A stretch of 64,000 nt of DNA. Source: Corallium rubrum (lineage: Eukaryota; Cnidaria; Anthozoa; Scleralcyonacea; Coralliidae). The stretch lies in assembly GCA_964035015.1 (NCBI GenBank), contig OZ036015.1:8492809-8556808 (forward strand). Reading direction: 5' to 3'. The position numbers were made by a program, and so were the translations under genes. The notes below the pieces were generated by a model. It searched no databases and was not told the origin of the DNA. It saw only the letters and a list, made by a program, of their open reading frames with translations. How positions within the stretch are numbered: position 1 is the stretch's first letter; each line of letters opens with the position of its first letter. Positions 18,727 to 26,965 of the stretch are shown in pieces.

Positions 18727-18780
18727 AATAATAATAATAATAATAATAATAATAATAATAATAATAATAATAATAATAAT
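18727..18780. repeat. (AAT)n flanking LINE-A (3' side)
   Basis: About 18 AAT triplets directly abutting the 3' end of the minus-strand LINE. Confidence 0.95.
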
Positions 18781-21700
18781 GGAAACTTTATTTATTTATG
18801 ATTTACGTATACTACAATGATAAACCTCTCTTTTACAGGTAGTTTACCAATGTCTACTTGAATTAACAAATGGTATAAAAATATTAGTATGACATTAAAG
18901 TCGGGTTATCCCATTCTTTGTTACGTTTACAAAATATATAGTAAGAGGCCCTTATGCAAGTGTTCATAATTTTCTGAGTATAGTACTTTCTACATCGTTC
19001 GTCAAATTTCAGGTCTTTCAGCATTTCAATAAAGTCTATAGATGACTGATTAAAAACTCCAAGCGAACTGATAGATAAATTTATAAATTTCACTTTTTCA
19101 TAATTTTTGTGCTGATCGTTAATAAGTTCTAGATATTTTTGTCTCTTACGGGTTGCATTAGTAAGAAGATTAGATTCAAATCCAACAGTCAGTTCGAGTA
19201 TGTAGATGTATTTGTTTTCGATTGTTATCAGAAGATCAGGGCGTAACTTATCTCCGGTGATAACAGATGGACTGATGAAGCCAGGTAGGTCAGCATAAAG
19301 GTTAATATAGTGTTGTACGGATTTAAGAGAGGTTGCAATGAAATTAAGAACGGAATCGTGTCGCCACGTAAAACGTCCTTCGTTTAGGTATGTCTTGCAT
19401 CCATTGACGACGTGGAGCAAGGTTTCGGGTTCCAAGCAGAAAGAACAGTCGGATGTTGGTGATATTCCCCATTTCAACAGATTTTTGCGAGTTGGGAGCG
19501 TATTATTTATGTACCGGATGGTGAAGTTAAAGATATTCTTAGGAAGTTTGTTTTGGACCGAGGACCATATAGAGTTGAGCGAGAGTGTAGAGTATTTGAT
19601 AATATTGGAGAAGAATGAACCTTGTGAAATGAGGTGATTTTGAAGCCTTTTTTCATTTTCTTTCCTGATAGTGTTCAGTACGTCTTTTGTGTTTTTGTAC
19701 TTGTCATATTGTACATTTTTGTGATTGCTTGTGGCCATCCATAGGTTTTTTATCTCGTCGTTTGGTGATGATTTCAAAACTTTCCGAGATATAGTTTGAC
19801 ATTGAAGAAATTTAGTTGATGGGAGAATGAGATTTAAGCCGAATTTGTTATGAGGAAGTAGGACGTTGCTAAGAGTTGCTGAAATTGGAAGCTCGAGCCA
19901 CTTTCGGATATATTTTGACACGATATTATCTAGATTCTCGTTTACCCAGGTTTTACCGATATCAGAAACGGTGAAGTGCCAAGAGATTTTTGAAAGAACA
20001 TAGCGATTGTACATTAGAATTTTGTTTTTCGGATGTAATGGTAGTTCGTCGATTTCATGCATGGTATTAGTCAGTGTGTCATATAATTCAGATTTGTGAT
20101 CTTCGTCAGACATATTGAAGTTAAAGTAGCGACCTAAGTATCGAAAGGATTTACCATTCTCAACACGTGGTACAAAACAGCTATTTATAAACAGTTTAGG
20201 GAGATATTGAACGGATTTTGTTAGTTCTTTTTTAATTCCAAATGTTGAGCATTTATCTACACGTATAATCATATTGGCCCACTGACACCAGATGGTAAAA
20301 CGGTTTAGTAGCATTTGATTTTCTTTTTCCTGACCAGTGATAACGGCAGCATCGTCGGCAAATTGGAACCAGTGGATTGGGTTGCATAAAATACCATTCT
20401 CGCTTAAATTCCAAAATCCAAGTTGACGGTATTTTTCAGATTTGATGTGCTGAATAAATGTATTGAATGACATATTGAATAAGAGAGGGCTGAGAGAGTC
20501 ACCTTGGAGAACACCACGATCAACTGTAATGAAACGTGTGTTGAACTCTTCGGTTATGATGGAAGTTTGGAAATCAGTGTAGAGGCTGTGTATGATATTT
20601 TTTATGTGATCGGGAATGTGATGATACTCAAGGACTTCTTGAATAAGGTTGTGATGGACTTCACCAAATGCATTCTTAAGGTCTAATAATGTTATGACGA
20701 GAGATCGTTGTTTGGTACGCGCTTTGTTTATTATGTGTGCCATCTGAGCTGTGTGTTCTAGCGTTCCGGAGAGTTTTGGGGTGAAACCTTTCTGGATGTT
20801 TTGTTCTATGTACTTGTTTTCTGCAAGAAATTGAAATGTTTTATTACGAAGGCATGATGTTAAAACTTTAAGCGGAATGGATTCAAGTGTTATTGGGCGA
20901 AAATTTGCAGGTTCGTCTGTTTCCCCTTTCTTGTGTATTAATATTGTGCATGCCTTTTTCCAGTCTGAAGGTACAACACCGGATGACCAGGCAGCGTGAA
21001 TTATCTCAGTTAAGTGTGAGCGTAAATAAGGACAGTGTTTAAAGCAGATTATAGATATCTGGTCAAGTGGACATGGAGCGCCAGACGGTTTCATTTTACG
21101 GATGACGTTAGTAATCTCTTGATAGGTCGGGGGGTCAAGATTAAATGGTGTTTGCGGTGAAGCAAATTTTGGAATCCAACTTGGGATGCTGAATGTTTTA
21201 CTTGGATTGATTGCGGAAAATGTTTTAGTGAAATAAGATGTGCATTGAGCCATGTTAAATGATGGAAGTGAGCTTGTGTTCTTTTTAAAAATCTTTTGAC
21301 ATATCCCCAGAAATTTTTATTAATTAGGTTGTCATGATCAATTTCTCCTGGTTGATGGTTAACAGTATTACTTTGATGAGTATTAGATTTGAGAAGGTTG
21401 CGCAGTTGCTTCGCGACGAATTTAATCTCTAGAACATCTCCGTTTTGTGATTTTAATTTCTTTAAGGCTTTCTTCAAATCTTTGGCGGAGAATTTTTCAT
21501 ATTTTCTTTTTAATTCCACATCATTATTTTCGACAAATCCAAAATTTTCACAAAAATAGTTGTACATAACTGTTGCCATGGTATTGATATTGTTATTTAA
21601 ATCGTGCGGTGTGATTGGGTGGTTTAAAAAAGTTAATTTGAAAAATTCGTTGGCTGTTGACCATTGTAACGGCGATTTGGGTAGTTTAATTCCTTTCTTT

Positions 21701-22190
21701 AATACAGGAAAGTTTTTTTGGCGAATTAAAGACGGGATTTCAGGGTCGGTTTGCTCTACATTATCCTCATCAGTCTGATGCTCGTTTAATGCGTCTGTCA
21801 TTTGTTGTTGTAGTTCGTCTTCAAGGTCATCAATGACTTTACAGCTTCGTTGGTGCATTTTAAGACCGCGAGCCCCTTTACAGACTTTACCACAGCAACA
21901 TTTAACAGCCTTGTACGATTTAACTGGCAGACACTCATTTGCAGGCAATTCAATAGCTGGATTTTCATTTACGTTGTTTTCTTGCTCGTAATCCACTTTG
22001 CTTTTACAACGCCATGAATGTCGACCCAATGATAAAAATTCTTTGCCACAAAATCCACATATTATGAGGGTAGCAAACGGTGCAAGTAAGCTTGAACGGA
22101 TCATTATAGATTAAATGTAAATATAAAAGCCAGAATACGATGTAATTTGTTAATTCAAGTAAAATTTTCTCGTTGAAACTAAGGACATGT
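18781..22190 (-). mobile_element. LINE-A: R2/NeSL-type retrotransposon inserted in (TAA)n
   Basis: A near full-length LINE of about 3.4 kb on the minus strand. Both ends abut (AAT)n microsatellite (18,727-18,780 and 22,194-22,227), so it appears to have inserted into a TAA repeat. It has one long coding region (next entry), a 5' leader of about 80 bp and a 3' UTR of about 100 bp. No poly(A) tail is visible beyond the microsatellite. Confidence 0.85.
18884..22104 (-). pseudogene. LINE-A polyprotein: zinc fingers, reverse transcriptase, REL endonuclease (one frameshift)
   Basis: The frame starts at the ATG at 22,104 and continues to 18,884 (about 1,073 codons), broken once. The N-terminal part (22,104-21,286) carries two cysteine/histidine fingers, CGFCGKEFLSLGRHSWRC and a second built on CCGKVC...HQRSC. 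The RT part shows the motif FADDAAVI, preceded by GVLQGDSLSP. Near the C-terminus is a CX2CX7HX4C knuckle (CSFCLEPETLLHVVNGC). A restriction-like endonuclease core follows, with RPDLL, then ELTV, then a basic RKRQKY stretch. This order is that of R2-superclade LINEs (R2, NeSL, R4), which use target-primed reverse transcription. The only defect seen is a one-base loss in an A5/T5 run at 21,282-21,286, so the copy is young. The same RT type is common in cnidarian genomes as far as I recall. Confidence 0.88.
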
Positions 22191-25129: not shown

Positions 25130-25207
25130 GACTCGGTTAATGTCCCAACAATTATTGGTGGGAATGTGAAACCGGCCAGACTTTATTTTTAAGCTGGCTA
25201 TATGCTG
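22491..25207 (+). mobile_element. LINE-B: R4/Dong-type retrotransposon inserted in (TAA)n
   Basis: A 2.7 kb LINE copy on the plus strand, 5'-truncated (coding sequence starts directly at the end of (AAT)n at 22,490) and ending in a short 3' UTR of about 77 bp that runs into (AAT)n at 25,208. R4/Dong elements of insects are known to insert in TAA repeats (established for Bombyx Dong). Flanking by the same triplet on both sides fits that habit. Confidence 0.85.
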
Positions 25208-26965
25208 ATAATAATAATAATAATAATAATAATAATAATAATAATAATAATAATAATAATAATAATAATAATAATAATAATAATAATAATAATAATAATC
25301 ATAATAATCATAATAATAATAATAATAATAATAATAATAATAATAATAATAATAATGATAATAATAATAATAATAATAATAATAATAATGATAATAATAA
25401 TAATAATAATAATAATAATAATAATAATAATAATAATAATAATAATAATAATAATAATAATAATAATAATAATCATAATAATCATAATAATAATAATAAT
25501 AATAATGATAATAATAATAATAATAATAATAATAATAATAATGATAATAATAATAATAATAATAATAATAATAATAATAATAATAATAATAATAATAATA
25601 ATAATCATAATAATAATAATAATAATAATAATGATAATAATAATAATAATAATAATAATAATAATAATGATAATAATAATAATAATAATAATAATAATAA
25701 TAATAATAATAATAATAATAATCATAATAATAATAATAATAATAATAATAATAATAATAATAATAATAATAATAATAATAATAATAATAATAATAATAAT
25801 AATAATAATAATAATAATAATAATAATCATAATAATAATAATAATAATAATAATAATAATGATAATAATAATAATAATAATAATAATAATAATAATGATA
25901 ATAATAATAATAATAATAATAATAATAATAATAATAATAATAATAATAATAATAATAATAATAATAATAATAATAATAATAATAATAATAATAATAATAA
26001 TAATGATAATAATAATAATAATAATAATAATAATAATAATAATAATAATAATAATAATAATGATAATAATAATAATAATAATAATAATAATAATAATAAT
26101 AATAATAATAATAATAATAATAATAATAATAATAATAATAATAATAATAATAATAATAATAATAATAATAATAATAATAATAATAATAATAATAATAATA
26201 ATAATGATAATAATAATAATAATAATAATAATAATAATAATATAATAATAATAATAATAATAATAATAATAATAATAATAATAATAATAATAATAATAAT
26301 ATAATAATAATAATAATAATAATAATAATAATGATAATAATAATAATAATAATAATAATAATAATAATGATAATAATAATAATAATAATAATAATAATAA
26401 TCATAATAATAATAATAATAATAATAATGATAATGATAATAATAATAATAATAATAATAATAATAATGATAATAATAATAATAATAATAATAATAATAAT
26501 AATAATAATAATAATAATAATAATAATAATAATAATAATAATAATAATAATAATAATAATAATAATAATAATAATAATAATAATAATAATAATAATAATA
26601 ATAATAATAATAATAATAATAATAATAATAATAATAATAATAATAATAATAATAATAATAATAATAATAATAATAATAATAATAATAATAATAATAATAA
26701 TAATAATAATAATAATAATAATAATAATAATAATAATAATAATAATAATAATAATAATAATAATAATAATAATAATAATAATAATAATAATAATAATAAT
26801 AATGATAATAATAATAATAATAATAATAATAATAATAATGATAATAATAATAATAATAATAATAATAATAATAATAATAATAATAATAATAATAATAATA
26901 ATAATCATAATAATAATAATAATAATAATAATAATAATAATAGAAATAATAATAATAATAAAATA
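25208..26965. repeat. 1.75 kb (TAA)n array with CAT and GAT interruptions
   Basis: Almost pure AAT for about 1,750 bp, broken by isolated G or C substitutions (AATGAT, AATCAT) and a few one-base phase shifts (for example near 26,241 and 26,301). Poly-Ile, poly-Tyr and poly-Leu open frames across it are artefacts. Confidence 0.97.

Follow-up and report, generated by a model that had tools for sequence, protein, structure and literature searches.

Whether two lineages of retrotransposons can share one microsatellite by using its two strands is a question raised by a short tract of the Corallium rubrum genome. Within a stretch of 64,000 nucleotides (nt) of contig OZ036015.1 (positions 8,492,809 to 8,556,808, GenBank assembly GCA_964035015.1; hereafter the window), two long interspersed nuclear elements (LINEs), here named LINE-A (minus strand) and LINE-B (plus strand), are embedded in AAT repeats, with which each is in contact at both ends. 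A preliminary description, made from the letters of the window, had noticed these four contacts, all of which are present in the sequence, and had proposed that two LINEs of different clades use the same repeat in opposite orientations, LINE-A lying in (ATT)n and LINE-B in (AAT)n relative to their own sense strands. This is borne out by copies of both elements elsewhere in the genome, with the same strand in every junction read. From these copies, we consider it probable (roughly 0.88) that LINE-A and LINE-B represent two young families, from different lineages bearing a restriction-like endonuclease (RLE), that target (AAT)n.(ATT)n on opposite strands.

LINE-A Copies in ATT Repeats

The genome searched was the window's own assembly (474 Mb, 312 contigs). 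A 501-nt LINE-A query matched at least 41 places (the best 40 of 103 candidates being scored), and the 39 loci fetched comprise 29 copies of the same family, family A (94–100% identity), and ten copies of a more distant and older one, family A2 (75–82% among the places matched, 75–79% in the ten loci fetched). A junction was counted as lying in the repeat when the 24 nt outside the element boundary fitted (ATT)n with at most four mismatches. By this measure, 22 of the 28 readable 5' junctions of family A are in (ATT)n in the sense strand (21 of 27 without L010, a duplicate of the window described below); the 29th copy, L011, has an assembly gap at its 5' end. At the other end, all 24 family A copies that reach the 3' end of the element continue as ATTATTA, in a single register, and 20 of them pass the 24-nt cut; five copies (L020, L025, L028, L044, and L045) stop short of this end. 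In the ten copies whose LINE-A 5' end is whole or nearly so, the flank is ATT or interrupted ATT rather than unrelated sequence, which the preliminary description had named as the outcome that would speak against it. For comparison, 24-mers fitting the repeat on either strand with at most four mismatches are found at 17 of the 54,377 positions that make up the remainder of the window and at 286 of 48,323 positions in the locus flanks; since this background is below 1%, the junction matches are not due to chance.

The 3' ends were also counted independently of the fetched loci. Exact 20-nt LINE-A 3' termini occur 63 times genome-wide and are followed by ATTATTATT in 56 cases, as against none with a reversed-pattern control. 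Six of these 56 are extra tandem tails at a single locus (L019) and one is the window duplicate; the remaining 7 of the 63 may still lie in ATT, and one of these, L023, starts ATTATTACT. In family A2, the 3' end is reached in seven loci, and in all of them the sequence goes on as ACATTATT (five loci after removal of the likely duplicate pairs L034/L035 and L037/L038). The terminus AATAAAGTTTCC followed by ATT is common to a 59%-identical element in L021 and to the element beside L032, and is found in slightly altered form in L026, L027, and A2.

The mean pairwise divergence of LINE-A is 1.0%, with a maximum of 3.8% (about 1.4 kb, 23 copies), and a single open frame of 1073–1075 amino acids (aa) is present in L010, L019, and L024. 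Together with the open frame of LINE-B (see below), this low divergence argues that the two families are recent.

Two further observations concern individual copies. In L032 and L033, LINE-A is truncated at the identical base, with different flanks, and L032, as judged by eye, adjoins another LINE-A-like element, at the truncated C-terminus of the latter.

LINE-B Copies in the Same Repeat

LINE-B was searched with its reverse transcriptase (RT) region and with its 3' end, each of which matched at least 41 places; 15 of the RT-region matches were listed at 97–100% identity. All 20 of the close LINE-B 3' ends that were fetched are in (AAT)n, 19 of them in exactly one register and one with a single difference, and exact LINE-B 3' termini number 28 genome-wide. 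The 5' ends are in (AAT)n in all seven cases where they can be read, namely in the window, at C37:2991528, and in L068, L069, L070, L081, and L043. The full-length element measures 4,344 nt, and its frame is open over 1,276 aa in L068; the window copy retains 2,717 nt of it. Nine small pieces were fetched for additional 5' ends: one gave a junction (L081), L074 turned out to be internal, and L079 has a gap, while L073 and L075–L078 have no LINE-B at the expected place, these copies being shorter, with their junctions unread. The last piece, L080, has no LINE-B match either and by eye resembles another R4-type open reading frame (ORF).

A Target or a Tail?

These counts over fetched copies, which the preliminary description had suggested as a check, bear directly on two other explanations. 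According to the first, the repeats would be the elements' own 3' tails, and the AAT tracts at their 5' ends would be a coincidence or the product of later growth. The register of the 3' junction, constant in nearly every copy, is what such tails would give, and L031 has (ATT)3 at its 3' end but a non-ATT 5' flank; most A2 5' flanks also fail the cut. However, the same repeat, on the same strand, is present at 22 of 28 LINE-A and 7 of 7 LINE-B 5' junctions that could be read, far above background, and copies truncated at many different points still begin in the repeat. With ATT also flanking LINE-A on the 5' side, the repeat is more than the tail of the element; the contrary outcome, flanking AAT that belongs to the elements' own ends, had been named by the preliminary description as one that would speak against its proposal. 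We regard the explanation by tails as very improbable. The second holds that insertion is untargeted and that copies in AAT arrays survive because such arrays are neutral. While it is true that only surviving copies are visible, LINE-A is young, as indicated by its 1.0% mean divergence, and survival alone leaves a fixed strand and register unexplained, which makes this possibility barely credible.

Several data nonetheless weigh against targeting of the repeat by both families. Six family A 5' junctions fail the cut (L016, L017, L026, L027, L031, and L043): the flanks of L016 and L031 appear clearly different from ATT, and L043 borders on a TTC repeat; those of L017, L026, and L027 are ATT-rich with interruptions, though they fail the cut. 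The 3' ends of L023, L024, L031, and L032 have just two to three perfect ATT units, so that part of the tail could be encoded by the element. In family A2 (about 77% identity), only two of nine readable 5' junctions pass (L038 and L047), with near misses in L036 (5 mismatches) and L046 (6 mismatches) and a gap in L037; the A2 5' boundaries determined by BLAST are less certain at this identity, and ATT is close by in several cases. As to LINE-B, its 5' junction can be read in only 6 of the 15 close RT-region copies, plus L043; of the other close copies, eight are without a readable 5' junction and one is the window duplicate. Finally, target-site duplications are indiscernible inside a microsatellite. 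Targeting of the repeat by both families is still the reading that we prefer.

Shared Arrays

A consequence of the fixed strand of each LINE is that LINE-A and LINE-B must face opposite ways within one array, as they do in the window, whose 33 perfect AAT runs of at least five units are all on the plus strand (Table 1). To count such pairs, 30 LINE-A and 35 LINE-B places were used, 10 A2 rows, one extra piece, and more diverged LINE-B rows having been dropped. Four pairs lie less than 10 kb apart (three without the duplicate), versus 0.044 expected under uniform placement, an excess that is predicted if both LINEs target AAT arrays. The orientation of neighbors follows the same rule: LINE-A-like neighbors are co-oriented with LINE-A in 7 of 7 loci (L012, L014, L021, L026, L027, L030, and L043) and LINE-B-like neighbors are opposite to it in 3 of 3 (L010, L030, and L043, of which L010 is the duplicate). 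This count excludes a 34%-identical RT match in L045 (5748–5999), which is opposite to LINE-A and lies between two pieces of that copy. Among these arrangements, LINE-A and a LINE-B with an intact 5' end face each other head to head on C37, with about 110 bp of repeat between them, L043 shows a tail-to-tail pair, and L030 holds three families in one array.

The pair of the window is itself present twice. Window positions 17587–23851 are duplicated about 164 kb away (L010, on C52 near 8,346,600–8,352,700) with 97.6–97.7% identity. This duplicate spans LINE-A, the array, and the start of LINE-B, and the pair that it carries is thus not independent of that in the window. The LINE-A frame is open in L010; in the window, a frame break splits the N-terminal ORF stretch from the RT stretch, and the element is about 31 nt short at its 5' end compared to longer copies.

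Table 1. Features of the AAT tract of the window and of the two LINEs embedded in it (window coordinates).
Feature	Position	Strand	Description
(AAT)18	18727-18780	+	target repeat at LINE-A 3' end; reads ATT in LINE-A sense strand
LINE-A	18781-22192	-	near full-length RLE-type LINE, 3412 nt
LINE-A inverted repeat, 17 nt, 3' UTR arm	18855-18871	-	
LINE-A ORF stretch P0002	18884-21316	-	reverse transcriptase (FADD), CCHC knuckle, restriction-like endonuclease PD motif
LINE-A N-terminal ORF stretch P0001	21091-22110	-	two zinc-finger-like motifs
LINE-A inverted repeat, 17 nt, 5' UTR arm	22145-22161	-	
(AAT)11	22195-22227	+	target repeat at LINE-A 5' end
(AAT)34	22270-22371	+	between LINE-A and LINE-B
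(AAT)19	22434-22490	+	target repeat at LINE-B 5' end
LINE-B	22491-25207	+	5'-truncated R4/Dong-like LINE, two frame breaks
AAT array, 1.8 kb, GAT/CAT variant units	25208-27020	+	at LINE-B 3' end
UTR, untranslated region.

The origin of the arrays is a separate matter. The preliminary description had supposed that the LINEs might account for the length of the TAA arrays, and one can imagine that they create or lengthen these arrays through the repeat units on their tails. One observation in favor comes from L019, where the 129-nt 3' end of LINE-A is present at 199–1212 in six additional tandem copies with ATT between them, forming what looks like a compound satellite in the making; LINE tails can thus be amplified along with the repeat. 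However, the 1.8-kb array of the window is without any LINE match and contains its own GAT and CAT variant units, which recur in order (as judged by eye, with no statistical test), and this points to ordinary repeat expansion. A general role of the LINEs in array growth is therefore quite improbable, and the idea that they are the cause of the long arrays is not upheld here.

Family Assignment

Both elements encode an RT recognized by Pfam (RVT_1, with E-values of 6e-24 for LINE-A and 1.4e-16 for LINE-B), and the solved proteins closest to both by sequence are R2 proteins (2.5e-32 for LINE-A, 1.8e-13 for the LINE-B fragment of the window, and 1.5e-20 for the LINE-B protein of L068). They are nonetheless distant from one another, with 28% identity between their RTs in the best-matching 161 residues.

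The LINE-B protein (P0008, 1276 aa) has FIDD at 744, a CRLC knuckle at 1075, and RRPDL at 1161; an RT, a C-R-x-C...H...C knuckle, and a PD-(D/E) RLE motif within a single ORF are as expected of R4/Dong. Its N-terminus carries two tandem WT..K repeats that are 48% identical to each other, and a zinc-finger pattern is found only at the knuckle. A Myb/SANT-like N-terminus has been reported for the R4/Dong clade, and Dong itself, from Bombyx mori and other species, is an RLE-bearing LINE that inserts into (TAA)n with TAA/AAT in its sense strand (PMC7998251, PMC3774820); a primer for the Dong 5' junction reads (TAA)n before the element (PMC3774820), and (TAA)n is stated to be the target of Dong in most insects, molluscs, and cnidarians (PMC7998251). 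By its target, strand, and C-R-L-C knuckle, LINE-B thus fits the R4/Dong assignment made in the preliminary description, while being a separate family of a type already known. It also differs from Dong, for which a ribozyme of the hepatitis delta virus (HDV)-like type is reported at the 5' end, in that no Rfam ribozyme was found at E ≤ 1 in L018, which has the full LINE-B 5' end; divergent ribozymes may escape Rfam. More generally, Rfam gave no ribozyme in window positions 16000–29500, L018, and L012, all listed matches being below gathering scores, and inspection of the LINE-B 5' end by eye gave no HDV-like fold that could be trusted.

The LINE-A protein, as seen in P0005, has FADD at 584, a CSFC knuckle at 889, and RPDL at 957. 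This single ORF with RT, CCHC knuckle, and RLE is as expected of the HERO clade, but is common to other RLE clades. Its N-terminus contains C-x2-C-x9-H-x3-C and C-x-C-type motifs, which are kept in a 42%-identical relative in L030. The knuckle reads C-S-F-C or C-P-F-C in P0004–P0007 and in the L027 relative, without the Arg between the first two Cys that is called conserved in many RLE clades, with R2, Dong, NeSL, and Utopia being named (PMC5678591). As HERO is the animal clade missing from this list, a HERO clade lacking the Arg is only implied, and this is weak evidence for LINE-A as a HERO element. The zinc-finger and Myb-like calls are pattern matches, for LINE-A with the added argument that the motifs are conserved in the L030 relative; neither protein has a zinc-finger or Myb/SANT match in Pfam, and AlphaFold2, run on LINE-A with four sequences, produced no usable model (mean predicted local distance difference test score of 32).

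The preliminary description had called LINE-A R2/NeSL-like. Membership of the R2 group in a wide sense stands, and LINE-A shares with R2 proteins, as does LINE-B, the order of RT, CCHC knuckle, and RLE found in the solved structures from Bombyx, zebra finch, and other species; within this group, LINE-A is more likely to be HERO-like than R2 or NeSL. A canonical R2 was rejected since the flanks of the 29 close copies are mostly ATT arrays and not the 28S ribosomal RNA (rRNA) gene that is the target of R2, a statement that concerns these flanks, no separate search for rRNA genes having been made. The knuckle, C-S-F-C in LINE-A instead of the C-R-x-C seen in two aligned R2 chains, goes against both R2 and NeSL, and a NeSL identity is further disfavored by the target, which consists of ATT arrays instead of spliced-leader or other RNA genes, although Togen (see below), which is near NeSL, does use a microsatellite. 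LINE-A may also resemble cnidarian and fish proteins of a HERO-like type, a similarity that serves as a lead only.

HERO elements, known from sea urchin, lancelet, fish, leech, and molluscs, are RLE-bearing members of the R2 group, and microsatellites are reported as the target of some HERO families (PMC4640811, citing Repbase Reports 14:311); LINE-A was compared with HERO through such published descriptions. Togen, a fish RLE LINE whose position between NeSL and HERO is unresolved, is specific for (TG)n, a repeat unlike that of LINE-A (PMC4640811). The insertion of an R2-related LINE into TAA repeats, which had been presented as less expected, is thus less surprising than it seemed.

Strand Choice and Origin of the Preference

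The mechanism of insertion is most likely target-primed reverse transcription. Because the strand that continues the complementary DNA at the 3' end of the element is the primer, LINE-A would prime from the AAT strand and LINE-B from the ATT strand. The LINE-A protein would nick the AAT strand and prime there, with an AUU end of the LINE-A RNA annealing in register, and the LINE-B protein, with its tandem Myb/SANT-like repeats, RT, CCHC knuckle, and RLE, would nick the ATT strand and prime there. That the two elements would nick different strands first follows from their anatomy combined with this mechanism. The fixed register suggests pairing of a few terminal repeat units of the RNA with the primer, or else a nick confined to one position of the triplet. 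By analogy with R2, the different N-terminal modules may be the readers of the AAT repeat.

It remains to be considered how two lineages came to use one repeat. Both bear an RLE and both target AAT, and (TAA)n is a Dong target across several phyla (PMC7998251), so that the preference for this microsatellite could have been inherited by both rather than acquired twice. Opposite strands, different N-terminal motifs, and RTs that are only 28% identical over their best 161 residues all speak against such common inheritance, which we consider rather unlikely. On the same grounds, independent adoption of the AAT repeat by the two lineages, as initially proposed, is plausible. Microsatellite-targeting LINEs are known, and what appears to be new is that two lineages with different N-terminal modules use one microsatellite on its opposite strands: no report of two LINE clades on opposite strands of one microsatellite was found in a literature search that left out Repbase Reports and most subscription journals.

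RNA Features of the LINE-A Lineage

In full-length LINE-A, the 40 nt at the 5' end (L012, 1476–1515) are predicted to fold as a hairpin (-13.7 kcal/mol), and a similar 5' hairpin is predicted in the 42%-identical L030 relative (near 1161–1200, -11.8 kcal/mol), both values being given without shuffle control. In addition, the 5' and 3' UTRs of LINE-A share 17 nt of perfect complementarity. End-to-end pairing of this length was reached by none of 5,000 dinucleotide shuffles (longest, 15 nt) and none of 3,000 plain shuffles; when pairing anywhere in LINE-A was considered, at least 16 nt were reached in 9 of 100 shuffles, including one of 18 nt, which weakens the 17-nt match. The L030 relative has the motif equally far from its 5' end, where it is complementary for 12 nt to the 3' UTR of the related L021, used in place of L030's own. 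The two differences in this pairing are matched on both sides, which is weak evidence if taken alone (23 of 3,000 shuffles). For six related 3' UTRs, RNAalifold also proposes a stem shared by all, again without control. If the 5'-3' pairing is true, the A2 5' UTR is predicted to carry TATTTGAACTG near nt 63.

Putting these elements together, we lean, at somewhat better than even odds, toward a broader picture. Two RLE lineages would have converged on both strands of one microsatellite, one through zinc fingers and the other through Myb-like repeats, with AAT arrays acting as shared hubs in which the orientation of each element is set by the strand that it reads. The LINE-A lineage would in addition carry a 5' hairpin and a co-changing complementarity between its 5' and 3' UTRs, suggesting an RNA closed end to end.

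Other Features of the Window

The surroundings of the two LINEs contain other repeats and coding stretches. A 25-mer of the AAT tract between the LINEs (22245–22269) recurs at 27824–27848, downstream of an element resembling a miniature inverted-repeat transposable element (27014–27767), which directly adjoins the long AAT array and has inverted end arms of 23–24 nt that are 83–88% complementary. Further away, positions 51096–53458 and 60177–61373 hold hAT-type transposase-like ORFs (Dimer_Tnp_hAT, DUF4371) and a polycystin channel stretch (PKD_channel, 5.8e-47). Searches of viral and prokaryotic DNA collections (P0002 and P0003 against viral contigs; P0002 against genome contigs, phages, and plasmids) gave no relatives outside the genome and are little informative.

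Implications

With the same duplex, opposite strands, and different N-terminal modules, LINE-A and LINE-B make a natural pair for the study of target recognition and of first-strand choice. The arrays that they share illustrate how several LINE lineages can be kept away from genes by a repeat offering many equivalent sites, and nested arrays would let the order of insertion be read.

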